A DNA stretch of 64,000 bases from Nitrosomonas communis. GTDB taxonomy: Bacteria; Pseudomonadota; Gammaproteobacteria; Burkholderiales; Nitrosomonadaceae. Position numbers and translations under genes: made by a program. Within the stretch, counting starts at the first letter, position 1. Each line of letters starts with the position of its first letter. The notes below the pieces were generated by a model. It saw only the letters and a list, made by a program, of their open reading frames with translations, was not told the DNA's origin and did no database searches. The stretch spans positions 47,850 through 111,849 of the forward strand of contig NZ_JAGFJM010000004.1 in the NCBI RefSeq assembly GCF_024102715.1. Direction: 5' to 3'. Positions 56,548 to 64,000 of the stretch are shown one piece after another.

Positions 56548-57252
56548 TCAATACCCCCATTCTTCATACCGGACCGGCAATCGATTGAGTTCGTCCCGAT
56601 AAAACCGCCATTTCGGCATGAATCGATCCATCAATCCGATAAAACGGCTATTGTGCGTCGGTTCCAGCAGGTGGGTCATTTCGTGCACCACGATATATTC
56701 CAGGCAAGCCCGCGGTTTCTTGGCCAATTCGGTATTGAGCCGGATGCTGCCCGAATGAACGCTGCAACTGCCCCACTTGGTTTTCATGCTTTGCACATAA
56801 AATCTCGTAACGCACACGCCCATGCGCGACTGCCATTTTTCGATCAATGCAGGAACGGCTTGCCTGAGATTCTCGCGGTACCAGGCTTCCAGAAGAGCCT
56901 GTTTTCTCTCTTGGTCCGTCCCCGGCCGAACCGAAAGCACCAGCTTGTTGTGCTTGAGTTCTATTCTGGGGGGCGCTTCTGTTTCTTCAATTTTGAGCAG
57001 ATAGCGCTTGCCCCAGACATAATGACTTTCACGGTCGAGATATTCCCGTGGCGCTTCCCGTTGCTGTGCACGCAGCTTCGATTGCTGTTTCTTGATCCAC
57101 GCCAATTTGGAAATGACAAACACCCGAAGCGTATCCGGTGCCATGCTGAGCGGGGCCGATACTTTGACTCTGCCATCTGGCGGGTAGACGCTTAAATGGA
57201 CATGTTTGATGTTTTTCTGAACGATTTCGATATCCAGCTCATTCAGTTTCAT
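56548..57252 (-). CDS. YgjP/SprT-like M48-type metallopeptidase (DUF45)
   Basis: A 234-aa zinc peptidase of the YgjP (DUF45/WLM-like) group, which is often the last gene of type I restriction operons. The zinc motif VVHEMTHLLEPTHNSRF supplies His190, Glu191, His194 and His200. KTKWGSCSVHSGSIRLNTEL and LDRESHYVWGKRYLLKI are family hallmarks. The ATG at 57252 lies 10 bases after the hsdR remnant's stop. The sequence looks intact although its operon is broken. Its function in restriction is not known. Confidence 0.88.
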   Translation of the reverse strand: MKLNELDIEIVQKNIKHVHLSVYPPDGRVKVSAPLSMAPDTLRVFVISKLAWIKKQQSKLRAQQREAPREYLDRESHYVWGKRYLLKIEETEAPPRIELKHNKLVLSVRPGTDQERKQALLEAWYRENLRQAVPALIEKWQSRMGVCVTRFYVQSMKTKWGSCSVHSGSIRLNTELAKKPRACLEYIVVHEMTHLLEPTHNSRFIGLMDRFMPKWRFYRDELNRLPVRYEEWGY

Positions 57253-57262
57253 GTTCAGGATT

Positions 57263-58162
57263 TCAGTAGTCACTTTGCTGTTTGACGATCGCAAAAATAC
57301 GCTCGACTTCATCGACATCGTTTACGACTTTGAAGATCGCGTATTTAATCGCATTTTCTTTGGCCAAATTACCACGAAAGCTATCCTGCTTGCTGCCCAT
57401 CACCGCGTCATTGATTTGCAACGCCAGCGCTTCGTTTTTGCCTAAATTGCTATACAGCACCCGCTTGGCTTTGGTATTCAGGGACATTGGCGTATCGTCC
57501 GGTTGCGCTGTGGTAGCTTTGCGGGCAAGATCGGCAATCTTTTGCAAATATTCCTGATAATTGAGCGCGTTCTGCTTGCGTTGCTTGACGATTTCATCGA
57601 GCAGCTTCGACATCTTCTCGAAGTAGGCCGGATCGAGCAGGTGGTTTTTGATGATGTGGCTGCGCACATTGTTTTCGATGGTCTCGGCCACCGCTTCTCG
57701 ATTGGCTCTGATGCCATCGGGCAGCGTGCTGATCGCCTCGGCAATACCGCTTTTCTCGATAATGTCCAGAATAGGCAGATCGGCAAACGGAGAAATGACC
57801 ACGGATTCTTCCGCCTGAATATAACGATCGATCAGATAGCGCATATCCGCTTCAAACGCTTTCAAATCGATTTTTTCATTGGCGGCATTTTTGATAACGT
57901 CACGCAGTTTGAGGTAGTAATCCACGTGACTCTTGATATGTTCGATAGCGCTCGGGCTGTAACCGGCCGTTTCCATGTCGTCGCCGATGTTGGCATACGC
58001 ACGGAGCAGGTTGGCGGTCGCTTTGTATAACGCGGTTCGTTGCACTTCGCGCGCTTTCAAGTCTTCCGGGATTTCGGTATTGCCGAATGGCCTGCGCATC
58101 AAGTAAGGTATAAATGTACCAATGCAGGCACTGATCCCTGAACGCTTTGTTACTTGCAGCAA
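57263..58162 (-). pseudogene. hsdR: 3' remnant of type I restriction subunit HsdR
   Basis: The frame encodes the C-terminal region of HsdR (DUF3387 type) with its typical order: EVQRTALYKATANLLRAYAN, AGYSPSAIEHIKSHVDYYLK, YIQAEESVVISPFADLPIL, NREAVAETIENNVRSHIIKN and YFEKMSKLLDEIV. The first 30 residues or so do not match, and the N-terminal nuclease and helicase domains (normally about 700 residues) are missing. The join lies near 58075-58120. It is therefore a truncated gene, though the peptidase after it remains intact. Confidence 0.85.
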
Positions 58163-58265
58163 TGAAAGACATAATCATCTAGCCGTTCCACGCCGTGTCA
58201 TCAGCAATCTGAAATTTGCGGATTCCGGGAAGTTTTATGCGTTTGATGGACAGATTGTGCCTTGA
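58122..58265 (+). pseudogene. Possible 47-codon gene fragment before the Avs-like gene
   Basis: A plus-strand frame ending at TGA 58263-58265 reads MQALIPERFVTCSNERHNH, then LAVPRRVISNLKFADSGKFY and AFDGQIVP. The composition looks protein-like and the frame has an ordinary C-terminal end, but I do not recognise it. It sits where the hsdR homology stops, so it could be a scrap of the inserted DNA. It may equally be chance. Confidence 0.25.
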
Positions 58266-58370
58266 TAATTTAATCCCAGGTAACAATGCAAGAGATTTAA
58301 GAAGTGTATAGTGATAAATACAGATCGACAAAAATCTAAGCTCGATTCATTTAATTGTTAACAAGAATTC

Positions 58371-61300
58371 ATGACCCTAAGCGCAACTGACCAGAAAAAC
58401 CAAAGCAATTTAAAGAATGAGCTGCAGAATGATCCGAAGCACTCCAAACTAGAGAAATTGGCAGCAGCTCTGATAAGTCGGCTTCTCGGTGTACCGATTG
58501 CGGTCGCAAAATCTGGCTTTCAACATGGCGGTGATGCCGGTCCAGCAGGTCGCCAAGGACGACGTTTCCGGTTGGAATGCAAGAAATACAGCGATACCAC
58601 TAGCCTGAGTGATCGAGAATTACTGGGTGAAATAGACCAAGCGCTAGCTCGAGACACTGCATTAGAAGCGTGGTTTCTTATTGCAACTCGCAATGTTCCT
58701 GAACAACTCCGGCAAGAACTTACGCAAAAAGGTGAGAGAGAAGGTGTGCCAGTAGAAATCATTGATTGGGAAGATCGCGAACTAGCCCCTCTTGCAGCAC
58801 TATGTGCTTTTGTGCCTGATATTGTAAAAGCTGAATTCTCGGAAGAGGCTGAAAAATTGGCATATGCACTTCAACCAGCTTCAACCGATACGATTGAAAT
58901 GTTGCGACGCAACCTGCAGTCTTGGTGCTTAGGTTTCAACATATTGCGAAACAGTTCGCACGACAAACTGAGAAAAATCTGGAACTCACCTAAAGAATCA
59001 AATGCCTACCTTGGGCAAGACGCAGCCGGCGGTGCTCACACAAAGCGAATTAGGCGCAATTCGGTCCATCAAGCTCTCAGTGATTGGTGGCTTGCACCGG
59101 CAAAGATAGATTCTCCTGCGGCAGTTATTGGCTGGGATGGCGTCGGAAAGACTTGGATAGCACTTAATTGGCTAATTGAGACAATCGACGAGCAACCAAT
59201 CATCCTGGTTGTCCCATCTTCTGCTGCTGCTAATCTTTCCAGCATTTCCGAAACAACAATAAAGCAGTTCCTGGCTAATCAGCTGTATGAGCTTAGTGGC
59301 GTTAGAGATACCGCACATTGGTTGCGGCGGCTAGATTACCTGTTTATGCGACCGACGGATGAAGGCTCTGTTTTCACTATTTTCTTTGATGGCTTGAATC
59401 AAGAACCTTCTATTCAATGGCTTAATCTACTCAAGATTCTGCAAAGTGAAATTTTCTCAACAAAAATACGAGTGATCATCAGTACACGAAAACATCACTT
59501 TGAAAACAAATTGGGAAGACTTCGCAGCCTGATTTCTGCTGCAAAATCTATTCAAGTCGATAATTATGATACAACACCAGGAGGTGAACTTGACCAAATG
59601 CTTGTATTCGAGGGTTTAACTCAAGCTGATTTGCACCCAGATCTAATTGAGCTAGCCCGCACACCTCGCTTATTCGCACTCGTAATCCGATTCCGCGATA
59701 GATTGATCGAAGCGGGCCAAATCACTGTTCATAGATTACTCTGGGAATATGGCCGAGATACCTTGGGTGTACGCGCTGGAAGATCATTTAGCGAAGAAGA
59801 ATGGCAAGCTTGGTTAAAAGAAATTGCGCAGAAATACCGCAATGGTATCAAGGAGTACACGACTAAATCTCTCGGTGAAACAGTAAGTCGCTTTGATCTT
59901 AAGGAATCAGAAAATTATGCACGCCTCAGTGACATCATCGATGGCCGGTTTGCGGAACCTGACCCATCAGGTAATTTACTTCTCACTTCGACAGTTATCG
60001 AACATGCCCTTGGCGTTGCACTGCTAACCCACCTTGACTCTGTTGCCAACACAAGCTTTACGTCACTTTATACCGCGCTCACGCAATGGCTTGACCCTAT
60101 TGCAGGATTGGACGAACGCGCGAAAATCCTGCGAGCAGCTGTTTCTATTCTGGTAGAACAAGATTCTAAACCTTCTATTCAAGCCGAAGTGCTTGTCACA
60201 GCATGGCTACAAACTCAAAATGCAACCGATAATCACCGAAAAGAATTAGCCGCGCTTGCCCCAAATCTCATTGATGCCCTACTTACTACGATAGAGCACT
60301 CTGACAATGATGCACAGGCATCTGCACGTCATTGGGCAGTTAACGCATTAAAAGCCATACCGAGAGAAAATCATCATGCTGCTACGACGATATTCGATAG
60401 GATTTCACAGTGGTTCAAAGTTATTTCACGAGACGTTTATCCCCATCAGGGTGCAGATTACGAAAAGAACCGGTCTGAAGGTTTCATACGCCGGATAGGT
60501 ATGGATCAATCGAAAGAAATTACGGTTGCGGGTGTTAAACTTGTACTCGTTGATCAATACGACGGCACACTACAGCTAACTGCACCTTCGATTATAGAAG
60601 GATTTCCACTTGCTGATGCGTTACCTATTTTTGAAGCAGCAGCAATCACACTAGCAATTCGAAATCGTTGCGAGGGCTGGGATGCTTTAAAATGGCTCTG
60701 TTTATTGAACGAAATCGATCCGGATGAAACAACCTTGGCTTTACGCAAACACGCAGAAAGTATCCAGCAACGGCAACCGGAGCCGGGTATAAATCCAGGC
60801 ATCCCTGATCGTATCGCCACACTTCTACTTGTGCTAATTGGTCAGGAATCAGATGAAACGGTTGCTGCAATGATCGATCCTCGTATTGATCGCTGGTATA
60901 CCTATGAAAAAGATTACTTACCAAATCCAAGTCATAGCTTTTTCGCACTTGAAAGACGGCATGCCAATCTTGCGCTAAACGATACCGATTCTTCTTTATC
61001 CTGGCGCGTACAAAAGACCAATGAATTTTGGTTTGATCCGGCTTTCCAACCACCAGCTTACTTTATCACTGAAATTAAAAAGCATTTAGCATCGATCGAG
61101 GTAAATAAACTTAATAGGCATGACCACTACACCAGTGAAGATCACAAATTTGAGCAACTCGAAAGTTGTTTTGCCCGTTGCACACCTGATTTGCTAGCCG
61201 ACAGGATGCGTCATAAAATCCAGGGCATTGCTTCATTTCCTGCGGGATCCCGCTATTGGAGTGCATTGCACGTAACTGATCATTTGTTATTGTCAGATAC

Positions 61301-63023
61301 GGAAGCTGCAACTGCTGCGAAAACTCTACGATTAAGTACTACCGAGATAGATGACACGCACGAATCTTTCGTTGCAATTCAGCTTTTAATGGTGGAAATA
61401 CTGAAACTTGATTCAAAATCCCAATTTCACACAATAATCGACGCAAATATAGAATGCATTTTTGACAACATCAAAGAAGTTTTACGGCCTCCCAGTTCAG
61501 ACGATGTTGATGCATTGATTGCTCACTACGCTAATGGGTCATCTAAACAAAAAAATGATCTTCTCCTGTTGTTATCTATTCACTCAGTAAAATTGAGTGA
61601 CCATGCATGGTCATGGATTCTTGAATTTATGAAAAAAATTCATCACAAGTTCTGTGATATTGCATTCCAAATACTGACATGCTTTGATGCAATCCGTATT
61701 GGAGAGGCACTTATGGCCGAAAACTGGTATTGGAGCCCGGACAAGCATTTCTGGATCAATCACTACGGCACCGGTGCTCTTATCGAAGCGACACGAGCAC
61801 TCCCTTTTGATCAAATAGCGCCGCGATTGGCACCATGGCGATTATTGGAAGCTGTAAGCTTACGTGGTGCTGATCCCAAAGAAACACGGCTTGCCGCTGA
61901 AATCATAGGGCATAAACTTTTAGCAGAGAAACTCGGCGAACCTGATCCAGGATCAATTTTATCGTTCGAGCGGAATGCCGCGAAGATTTCTCCCTTTTCA
62001 TTTTCTGTTACACCACATCAAAGCCAAACTGTTACCAGCGATCCATCCGTTGCATTCGGAGCAACCATGGATGATGATGCATGGATAAAAGCGCACCGAC
62101 TCGCCGCCGAAACGGCCGTCTCACGTATCAATGAAGCAAGAACATCTGGTGCAGATTTATATCTCACAATTCCAGATGCAGCTGACTTCATACCAGCTTT
62201 GCGATATGCATCGAATATGGTTGAGCGTTGGCTTGAAGGCTACCAGGAACTTACGCCGGATTTCAGACGCCGCGTTCACTTGGCAGAAGGCACCTATCTT
62301 GCACTGTGTGAAGCGCTTCTTAGTTATGATCCCCCACGGGGCGTGAATTTGTGGCGATCTCTCCGCGCAACGATATCCACACGTTATCTTGGCAAAGCGG
62401 ATATCGAAGATTTTTTGCACATGATCTTTCGTGTATCCGACTCTCCTGAGGTCACCGCATTGCGTATAGAGTTGCTCGAACTTGATTACAGTAATACCGA
62501 TCAAGATTTGCTAAATCTGGCGATTGCCGCCTCGTACAATGGTAAAGCAGTCTGGTTAAATGAAATGATTGAATCAGACCGAAAATCTCCGTTTGCCTGG
62601 AAACGAAAACGCGGTGTTGTTCTCTCAGGATTCACAGCAAACAACATTCTTCCTATTCCAGATGCTTGGCCCGAGGGTGAAATTAAGACCAGCCATGAAT
62701 CTTTAGAAAAGAAATCTGCTCGTTTCCGTTGGATTGAAGCTTGCGCTCGTCATTGGTGGGAAATCTATCTTAAGGCGAATGATCCATCTGAGGCTTATGC
62801 TGCCTGGATACTTTTTCTTAAGTCAGCTGATCCACGTGCCTGGATCTGGATTGATCAAGAAATTGAAGTGGCCAATGATTCTAGTAACTTCTTTAAATTA
62901 AAATTGGGTCACTTCCAGCTTAATCGCTCAAAACTTAAGCGAGCTATGGAAAAGCGGATTGAAAAACTCAATAAAAAATTATTTGACCGAGATATTTGTA
63001 ATGGAGTAAGACCATGGAGATAA
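58371..63023 (+). CDS. Avs-like STAND NTPase with N-terminal PD-(D/E)xK nuclease-like domain
   Basis: A 1550-aa protein. Residues about 25-145 form a restriction-endonuclease-like domain: FQHGGDAGPAGRQG (Asp55) and FRLECKKYSD (Glu69, Lys71), the D...ExK pattern of Mrr-like nucleases. Then a STAND-type P-loop NTPase: Walker A GWDGVGKT (254-261), Walker B FTIFFDGLNQ (Asp340), and RVIISTRKHH. The segment LARTPRLFALVIRFRDRL and ITVHRLLWEYGRDT follows as in the winged-helix part of NACHT-like ATPases. The remaining 1050 or so residues have no recognised motif and read as helical repeats. Nuclease, STAND and a long sensor match Avs (AVAST) antiphage proteins. The frame is intact. Confidence 0.8.
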   Translation: MTLSATDQKNQSNLKNELQNDPKHSKLEKLAAALISRLLGVPIAVAKSGFQHGGDAGPAGRQGRRFRLECKKYSDTTSLSDRELLGEIDQALARDTALEAWFLIATRNVPEQLRQELTQKGEREGVPVEIIDWEDRELAPLAALCAFVPDIVKAEFSEEAEKLAYALQPASTDTIEMLRRNLQSWCLGFNILRNSSHDKLRKIWNSPKESNAYLGQDAAGGAHTKRIRRNSVHQALSDWWLAPAKIDSPAAVIGWDGVGKTWIALNWLIETIDEQPIILVVPSSAAANLSSISETTIKQFLANQLYELSGVRDTAHWLRRLDYLFMRPTDEGSVFTIFFDGLNQEPSIQWLNLLKILQSEIFSTKIRVIISTRKHHFENKLGRLRSLISAAKSIQVDNYDTTPGGELDQMLVFEGLTQADLHPDLIELARTPRLFALVIRFRDRLIEAGQITVHRLLWEYGRDTLGVRAGRSFSEEEWQAWLKEIAQKYRNGIKEYTTKSLGETVSRFDLKESENYARLSDIIDGRFAEPDPSGNLLLTSTVIEHALGVALLTHLDSVANTSFTSLYTALTQWLDPIAGLDERAKILRAAVSILVEQDSKPSIQAEVLVTAWLQTQNATDNHRKELAALAPNLIDALLTTIEHSDNDAQASARHWAVNALKAIPRENHHAATTIFDRISQWFKVISRDVYPHQGADYEKNRSEGFIRRIGMDQSKEITVAGVKLVLVDQYDGTLQLTAPSIIEGFPLADALPIFEAAAITLAIRNRCEGWDALKWLCLLNEIDPDETTLALRKHAESIQQRQPEPGINPGIPDRIATLLLVLIGQESDETVAAMIDPRIDRWYTYEKDYLPNPSHSFFALERRHANLALNDTDSSLSWRVQKTNEFWFDPAFQPPAYFITEIKKHLASIEVNKLNRHDHYTSEDHKFEQLESCFARCTPDLLADRMRHKIQGIASFPAGSRYWSALHVTDHLLLSDTEAATAAKTLRLSTTEIDDTHESFVAIQLLMVEILKLDSKSQFHTIIDANIECIFDNIKEVLRPPSSDDVDALIAHYANGSSKQKNDLLLLLSIHSVKLSDHAWSWILEFMKKIHHKFCDIAFQILTCFDAIRIGEALMAENWYWSPDKHFWINHYGTGALIEATRALPFDQIAPRLAPWRLLEAVSLRGADPKETRLAAEIIGHKLLAEKLGEPDPGSILSFERNAAKISPFSFSVTPHQSQTVTSDPSVAFGATMDDDAWIKAHRLAAETAVSRINEARTSGADLYLTIPDAADFIPALRYASNMVERWLEGYQELTPDFRRRVHLAEGTYLALCEALLSYDPPRGVNLWRSLRATISTRYLGKADIEDFLHMIFRVSDSPEVTALRIELLELDYSNTDQDLLNLAIAASYNGKAVWLNEMIESDRKSPFAWKRKRGVVLSGFTANNILPIPDAWPEGEIKTSHESLEKKSARFRWIEACARHWWEIYLKANDPSEAYAAWILFLKSADPRAWIWIDQEIEVANDSSNFFKLKLGHFQLNRSKLKRAMEKRIEKLNKKLFDRDICNGVRPWR

Positions 63024-63084
63024 AGATGCCCAGGGATAAAGGTCAGCCCAGTGATGAAGAGAACTGATAGGAGCGAGCACGGGA

Positions 63085-63698
63085 TCAGGTTGGCTCGAAT
63101 GGATCAAAGATTTGCGCAGGTGCTCTAGGCGGCACTCGGAAGGACAAGCCAAGATGATCAAGAATTTTAGTGATTGCGCCAGATTCCAGGATGGCGGCGA
63201 TGATTTTCAGGGTTCCCCCGCAATGCGGGCAATGCTCAATGTCAATATCGAACACCCGTTTAAGCAAACGCGCCAACTGACACGCACGGAAGCCGAGGAA
63301 GGTGGCACAGCATCATTCGTGCAGGATGGATTACTTTTGTTTTTCTTGCTACCGGGAATAATCTCAGAACGAAGCTTCACGTTGAGCGCGAGCACGCCAT
63401 GGAAACTAATGAGGTTAAGCCTTGGCCTGGGAACTAACGCGGCCAGTCACTGCATGAATTCCAGCGGCGACATGACGATATGCGTGGTGCCATCCCGATA
63501 AGGCGTTTTTAGTGTCAACACCACCTGCCCAGCATCATTTAGCGCCAGACGCTCATTGGCAATTGCCGGCCGCGTGATTAACGACACAGGTGTTCCAGTT
63601 CCTTGCGCTGATTCATGGCGCAACGCACCCCGGCATGCAGGCTAAAGCCGTGGGCGTTGGCACAGTACTCCTGGTCTGACTGTTCCAGATTTTGTGTG
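63085..63698 (-). pseudogene. Decayed IS91-family (ISCR-like) rolling-circle transposase
   Basis: Six-frame reading joins fragments of the C-terminal third of an IS91/IS801-type transposase: YCANAHGFSLHAGVRC, NERLALNDAGQVVLTLKTPY, RDGTTHIVMSPLEFMQ, LAALVPRPRL and ARLLKRVFDIDIEHCPHCGG. There are at least three lesions: a one-base loss around 63590 (after HLCR), a TGA within EFMQ*LAAL, and a further one-base shift before ARLLKRVF. The N-terminal catalytic tyrosine region is missing. The 5' end abuts hsdM sequence at about 63700; the 3' end lies just after the Avs-like gene's stop. Confidence 0.82.
63085..63698 (-). mobile_element. Remnant of an IS91-family insertion sequence
   Basis: The transposase remains are the only sign of the element; no intact ends were identified. 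The element interrupts the hsdM coding sequence directly (join at 63698-63702), so it reached the restriction operon and then decayed. IS91-type elements can move adjacent DNA, but nothing shows that it carried the neighbouring Avs-like gene. Confidence 0.7.
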
Positions 63699-63701
63699 GG
63701 T

Positions 63702-64000
63702 GCGGTTCTTACTGAAATCAAGCGCCTTGTTTTCAAAAATGGCGATGAGGTTGCTGAGCCCGTCCACCATGTTCTTACCGCTGCCGAGTTTTTCCGGATC
63801 GTTGAAGTTCGGCATGCTGGACAGCTTGTTGGCATTGGCGAGCGGCGGGATGATGATCGGCGCAAACGGCTGACCGGCGTATTTGTCGCTGACGTATTTG
63901 ATGAACAGCATCACCAGCACATAATCCTTGTACTGGCTGGCATCCATGCCGCCGCGCAGTTCATCGCAGCTCGACCACAGGGAGGAATAAAGTTCGGATT
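63702..64000 (-). pseudogene. hsdM: 5' piece of type I methyltransferase HsdM, internally deleted
   Basis: The frame continues past the right edge and reads SSLWSSCDELRGGMDASQY, KDYVLVMLFIKYVSDKYAG, QPFAPIIIPP, then LANANKLSSMPNFNDPEKLG and NLIAIFENKALDFSKNR. In HsdM, roughly 30 residues normally separate the IIIPP and LANANK segments, so there is an in-frame deletion. The coding homology stops after SKNR at 63702, where the transposase remnant begins. The AdoMet-binding motifs (NPPF) are lost, so this copy cannot methylate. Confidence 0.85.

Follow-up and report, generated by a model that had tools for sequence, protein, structure and literature searches.

A putative single-gene STAND nuclease with an N-terminal Mrr-type domain in a disrupted hsd operon of Nitrosomonas communis

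The window, i.e., the whole stretch of 64,000 nucleotides of Nitrosomonas communis DNA analyzed here, comprises positions 47850-111849 of its contig and contains a putative STAND nuclease gene (58371..63023, plus strand) between the remains of a type I restriction operon. The gene forms one open frame of 1550 codons that encodes 1550 amino acids without an internal stop, as had been claimed from the sequence beforehand; under the base composition of the gene, an open run of this length has a chance of about 10^-38.7, and the protein start, MTLS, is common to the Azospirillum relative in the alignment. On the left, a gene for a YgjP-like metallopeptidase (56548..57318, minus strand; Pfam PF01863, 8.9e-63) lies beside the hsd operon, of which the 3' end of hsdR remains (57263-58162, minus strand; PADLOC REase_I, 5.7e-89, profile positions 758-1033 of 1034 only). 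It is followed on the plus strand by a 79-bp tail of a short-chain dehydrogenase (SDR) gene (58191..58269; Pfam adh_short), which is 92% identical to the SDR end of another genome (G008) and found no BLAST match in the SDR gene fetched from its own genome, and by a leader up to the start codon (58270..58370) that is partly conserved in other Nitrosomonas copies. On the right, the minus strand carries the end of an IS91-family transposase gene of the Y2, zinc-binding type (63115..63707), which shares 82% DNA identity with a G008 stretch that holds a 389-aa open reading frame with the domains Y2_Tnp and Zn_Tnp_IS91; in the window, tblastn places the match in two frames, and the gene is therefore broken. 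The 5' end of hsdM (63642-63998, minus strand; Pfam HsdM_N, 8.8e-12) closes the locus and is visible only as far as the end of the window, which is also the end of the contig. The flanks of hsdM, hsdR, and transposase remnants named in the original prediction were hence confirmed by the PADLOC, Pfam, and IS91-type matches.

Comparison with two other Nitrosomonas genomes (G012 and G002) delimits the insertion. Both match the hsdR side up to 58085 (82% and 80% identity) and the hsdM side from 63702 onward (88 to 92%), and both carry about 5.6 kb between these matches, an unannotated interval that presumably contains hsdS, the remainder of hsdR, and most of hsdM. The window instead has the block at 58086-63701, consisting of the SDR tail, the leader, the STAND gene, and the broken transposase end. 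In Nitrosomonas oligotropha Nm45 and a Nitrosomonas metagenome-assembled genome (MAG), the STAND gene begins about 100 bp past an open SDR gene, and in Nitrosomonas ureae Nm13 there is a short match to the SDR end just upstream (81% over 52 bp). The SDR tail in the window, together with the SDR genes upstream of the other copies, indicates that the block moved from an SDR site into the hsd operon. Its source was probably another Nitrosomonas lineage, and the adjacency of the transposase end suggests that an IS91-type element may have moved it.

Ten full-length relatives from two phyla can be aligned with the window protein over its entire length. In all 11 rows, E28, S48, Q51, G53, D55, E69, Y73, G254, G257, G259, K260, D340, G341, and N343 are invariant, and K71 and R373 are kept in at least 90%. 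The predicted nuclease and NTPase motifs, D55, E69-x-K71, Walker A GWDGVGKT, and DGLNQ (within FFDGLNQ), are thus present, with D55, E69, and K260 among the invariant positions. The N-terminal domain (residues 14-165; 58410..58865, plus strand) carries D55 at 58533-58535 and E69 to K71 at 58575-58583. A 13-row alignment of this domain has E28, Q51, G53, D55, E69, Y73, and W101 in all rows and K71 in at least 90%, with R at this position in G278. Compared by hhalign with a Mrr_cat profile made of 17 domains, the higher-scoring among 37 matches, it scored 43.8 (probability 92) over 103 columns with the catalytic residues in register, whereas 100 column shuffles reached at most 20.8 and the reversed alignment 13.2. 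The full family profile of 1542 columns matched Mrr_cat best at 19-134 (45.5, probability 72; shuffles to 22.8). No profile similarity to the Avs2 nuclease domain was detected (16.6; shuffles to 18.1), and Cap4_nuclease, found in 2 of 185 genomes, was too rare for a profile. These results support the assignment as a predicted PD-(D/E)XK nuclease of the Mrr type; the Mrr-like N-terminus of the original prediction was borne out, as none of the 100 shuffles exceeded 20.8.

The putative NTPase core (residues 250-440; 59118..59690, plus strand) was delimited by the alignment, by Pfam NACHT matches in family members, and by profile comparison, and contains the Walker A motif at 59130-59153 and FFDGLNQ, a D-G-x-N Walker B region, at 59382-59402. 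It scored 54.2 against the Avs2 core (60 shuffles to 20.0) and 47.6 against the core of an Avs4-like protein (shuffles to 26.6); in full-length comparisons with the Avs2 and Avs4-like proteins, the NTPase part alone was alignable. Pfam NACHT was found in 6 of the 11 members at E <= 1, with 1.7e-6 as the best value, while a match at 9e-4 in L033 was below the cut-off; it is absent from the matches of the window protein, whose sole Pfam match is AAA_22 (E 0.079). The assignment of this part as STAND-type is supported by the invariant Walker residues and the two matched cores, which upholds the earlier claim. The domain check named beforehand has accordingly recovered, by profile comparison, the relation of both the nuclease and the STAND NTPase.

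The C-terminal part (residues 561-1550; 60051..63020, plus strand), the presumed sensor, is conserved over its full length in the 11 rows; its roughly 1000 residues keep length and register through the family and, in the searched libraries, correspond to no known motif. It found no profile match in the C-terminus of Avs2 (18.7; 20 shuffles to 22.3) or of the Avs4-like protein (21.5; shuffles to 21.6). The prediction that this sensor is not a recognized one therefore holds against Avs2 and one Avs4-like protein, the two covered by the comparison. Whole-protein searches were similarly silent. The window protein had no match in PADLOC or NCBIfam at E <= 1; among the 11 members, PADLOC returned six families with one member each (best 6.3e-4), with its Avs2 model reached by one member at E 0.029, and NCBIfam one family with one member (E 0.19). 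Solved structures gave no match for the window protein (E <= 10) or for the full alignment (E <= 1) and no significant match for the domain profiles, whose 11 nonsignificant matches included two restriction nucleases, AspBHI (E 0.17) and BbvCI (E 0.58). AlphaFold models built from 5 and 6 rows, drawn only from the window and related loci, with mean pLDDT values of 47.4 and 42.2, were too poor for use, and the C-terminal model was mostly helical at a confidence too low for any inference.

Members of the family are rare and scattered. The closest relatives of the gene belong to Nitrosomonas, of which three other genomes carry a copy. With the own genome counted, relatives occur in 2 of 61 related genomes, 3 of 274 of the class, and 4 of 398 of the phylum, and a second class contributed 2 of 289, one of which (G911) is 10% contaminated. 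A housekeeping role is rejected because of this rarity. Twelve of 72,556 plasmid records carry a relative, and queries with two more members at a stricter limit each returned 11 of the same 12 and none that was new. No relative was detected in 50,697 phage records, in two scans of viral contigs with short peptide patterns, or in Escherichia coli by megablast; the phage records and viral contigs leave a phage-borne origin unsupported. Three Manganitrophus records represent the Nitrospirota, and the other named relatives belong to the Pseudomonadota. With full support, a 15-row tree that includes two pieces groups the Azospirillum plasmid copy (60% identity) with the three Nitrosomonas rows, whereas G150, from the same class, has 39% identity and stands apart, which is indicative of horizontal spread. 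The surroundings of 12 relatives were examined, and seven of these relatives sit on plasmids. The plasmid copy of Manganitrophus GAC4 (L018:11623-16588) has a frame break near the C-terminus, unlike that of GAC2 (L013). No name for the family came up in the searches made of the open-access literature.

Among the four Nitrosomonas copies found, only that of the window is intact, and assembly error may underlie the breaks in the others. The Nm13 copy consists of two contig-end pieces with an internal stop, and the MAG and Nm45 copies have one frame break each, so that the gene appears dispensable there. The Nm13 copy (end of L006, start of L003) is cut by the contig ends at about residues 235-315, as an inserted repeat element would do. 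Seven piecewise comparisons of the window gene with the three other copies gave dN/dS values of 0.16 to 0.25, which shows purifying selection on the gene relative to these copies and makes the breaks look recent.

Synonymous divergence is distributed in a mosaic pattern along the gene. The scan covered 58371-63020 in steps of 50 codons for all six pairs of the four copies. Low dS values of 0.03 to 0.21 were found at 101-150 between the window and the MAG, at 1401-1450 between the window and both Nm45 and the MAG, and at 1151-1300 between the window and Nm13 (up to 0.21). Values above 1 occurred at 901-950 in all six pairs and at 951-1000 in five, where Nm45 values near residue 905 touch the frame break of that copy, and, in all three pairs that include the window, at 1051-1100 and 1451-1550; some peaks, at 601-650 and 651-700, lie outside this region. 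In a permutation test restricted to same-amino-acid codons, the unevenness exceeded 1000 of 1000 permutations in each pair, in a scan confined to this gene. The simplest reading of these sequences is recombination between alleles, which would be strongest at about residues 901-1000 of the presumed sensor.

The relatives are often found near defense genes. The stretches within 8 kb of 12 relatives encode 103 proteins (>=150 aa), which yielded matches to 90 PADLOC families (E <= 1e-20), whereas 11 control stretches, taken from the same genomes or plasmids, encode 138 proteins with matches to 47; since the models overlap and are not systems, this difference is indicative only. Hachiman adjoins the Manganitrophus and Methylobacterium copies, a XamI restriction gene lies beside that of Manganitrophus, a GajB-like helicase and RloB are near the Sphingobium plasmid copy, pAgo is near the relative in G385, a PDC-S37/Hhe match is near that in G911, and an Avs4-like gene is near the Azospirillum copy. 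Defense genes thus occur near at least 6 of the 12 relatives. None of the neighboring genes recurs across the loci as a constant partner, which fits a single-gene system. A Trypsin_2-NACHT-like protein is encoded about 10 bp downstream of the relative in G385 (L025:10993-19326), and on an Azospirillum oryzae plasmid (L012:6676-16662) the gene for the Avs4-like protein lies upstream of the relative at a distance of about 120 bp, each on the same strand; these two loci with a second STAND-type gene possibly encode paired receptors. Near the relative in G278, a 1481-aa protein (L030:3771-8213) has no match in PADLOC (E <= 0.1) or Pfam (E <= 0.001).

Taken together, the window gene probably encodes a single-gene, NLR-like STAND nuclease that would kill or arrest phage-infected cells. 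The C-terminal 1000 residues or so may recognize that the cell is infected, the most likely cue being a conserved phage protein, upon which the STAND NTPase would bind NTP and oligomerize; the clustered Mrr-type nuclease domains could then cut DNA, and the infected cell would die or stop growing. Against this reading stand the missing defense-database match, the lack of a NACHT match in the window protein, the choice of the higher-scoring Mrr_cat domains for the profile, the poor fold models, the three broken Nitrosomonas copies, the failure to find a phage-borne relative, the exchange of K71 for R in G278, and the control stretches, which match PADLOC families too.

A rather unlikely alternative with the same nuclease output is a receptor of the bNACHT type guarding a chaperone or other host protein and not binding a phage protein. 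The NACHT matches in 6 of the 11 members agree with it, as does the dependence of bNACHT25, a PD-(D/E)XK nuclease joined to NACHT, on host DnaJ (PMC12169576); the window protein itself lacks a NACHT match, and its NTPase core matches Avs2 and the Avs4-like protein well above the shuffles. It is distinctly unlikely that the window holds a silent, recently moved copy whose frame is intact but whose expression is lost and which is decaying like its Nitrosomonas relatives. Its position next to a broken transposase within a disrupted operon, the three broken copies elsewhere, and an upstream region of only the SDR tail and the leader of about 100 bp before hsd sequence would suit such a copy, whereas 1550 open codons, intact catalytic residues, and a partly conserved leader speak for a working gene, as does a dN/dS of about 0.2, even if average selection is compatible with very recent silence. 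It is improbable that the gene encodes a restriction-like system whose trigger is foreign or modified DNA, as for Mrr, or plasmids in place of a phage protein, despite the Mrr-type nuclease and the site inside a former restriction operon, because the long C-terminal part with a STAND switch is the layout of protein-sensing receptors (PMC12931631 and PMC12169576), the hsd position results from the move, and 7 of the 12 relatives examined are themselves on plasmids.

Beyond the proposed NLR-like STAND nuclease of the window, it is conceivable, as a tentative proposal, that the gene represents a new antiphage receptor family of the NLR-like kind, present in at least two phyla and with its own sensor type, diversified in Nitrosomonas by allele recombination, and that it is carried between sites by IS91-type elements and repeatedly broken, lost, and regained. 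If the window protein works as a STAND nuclease in the way proposed above, a discrete branch would be added to the bacterial STAND immune receptors that is silent in the defense databases searched. The mosaic Nitrosomonas alleles would then be natural sensor swaps suited to map recognition, and they would illustrate how the specificity of a bacterial NLR-like protein may shift in nature.

Among known systems, Avs4 unites, in a single protein of comparable size, a Mrr-like nuclease, a STAND NTPase, and a long C-terminal sensor, and the C-terminal part of bNACHT25 is much shorter than that of the window protein. The likeness to Avs4 comprises the three-part layout, the size, and the NTPase core; the differences are the missing PADLOC match and the C-terminus without profile similarity, in a comparison made via the Avs4-like protein and not a bona fide Avs4. 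A search with the Avs4 reference PDLC02169 gave no match anywhere, controls included, and is hence uninformative. Avs2 is present in two Nitrosomonas genomes, with 1404 aa in G021 (L038:337-4548; PADLOC Avs2, E 0) and split over two frames in G009 (L037:1498-6014). These Avs2 copies share the layout and the NTPase core with the window protein and differ in the nuclease and the C-terminal part. With the Mrr and Mrr-like restriction nucleases (Pfam Mrr_cat), the catalytic domain is shared by profile, but in the window protein it forms the effector at the N-terminus of a STAND protein, and on its own it lies under the Pfam report level. The predicted closeness to a Mrr-type Avs class thus stands for the nuclease type and the Avs2/Avs4-like NTPase core and fails for the Avs models, none of which match the window protein, and for the sensor, which is unlike those of Avs2 and the Avs4-like protein. 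By the tests performed here, the sequence is not to be filed under Avs types 1-5. Nuclease effectors are described for Avs1-4 in PMC12931631, and PMC12169576 describes bNACHT25 and bNACHT32, which are set beside the window protein by description only, as PD-(D/E)XK nucleases joined to a NACHT-type NTPase, with the nuclease required for defense. With a NACHT match in 6 of the 11 members and no Avs model match for the window protein, Avs and a nuclease bNACHT such as bNACHT25 are equally near as models, and by analogy the window protein is best read as functioning in the manner of one or the other.
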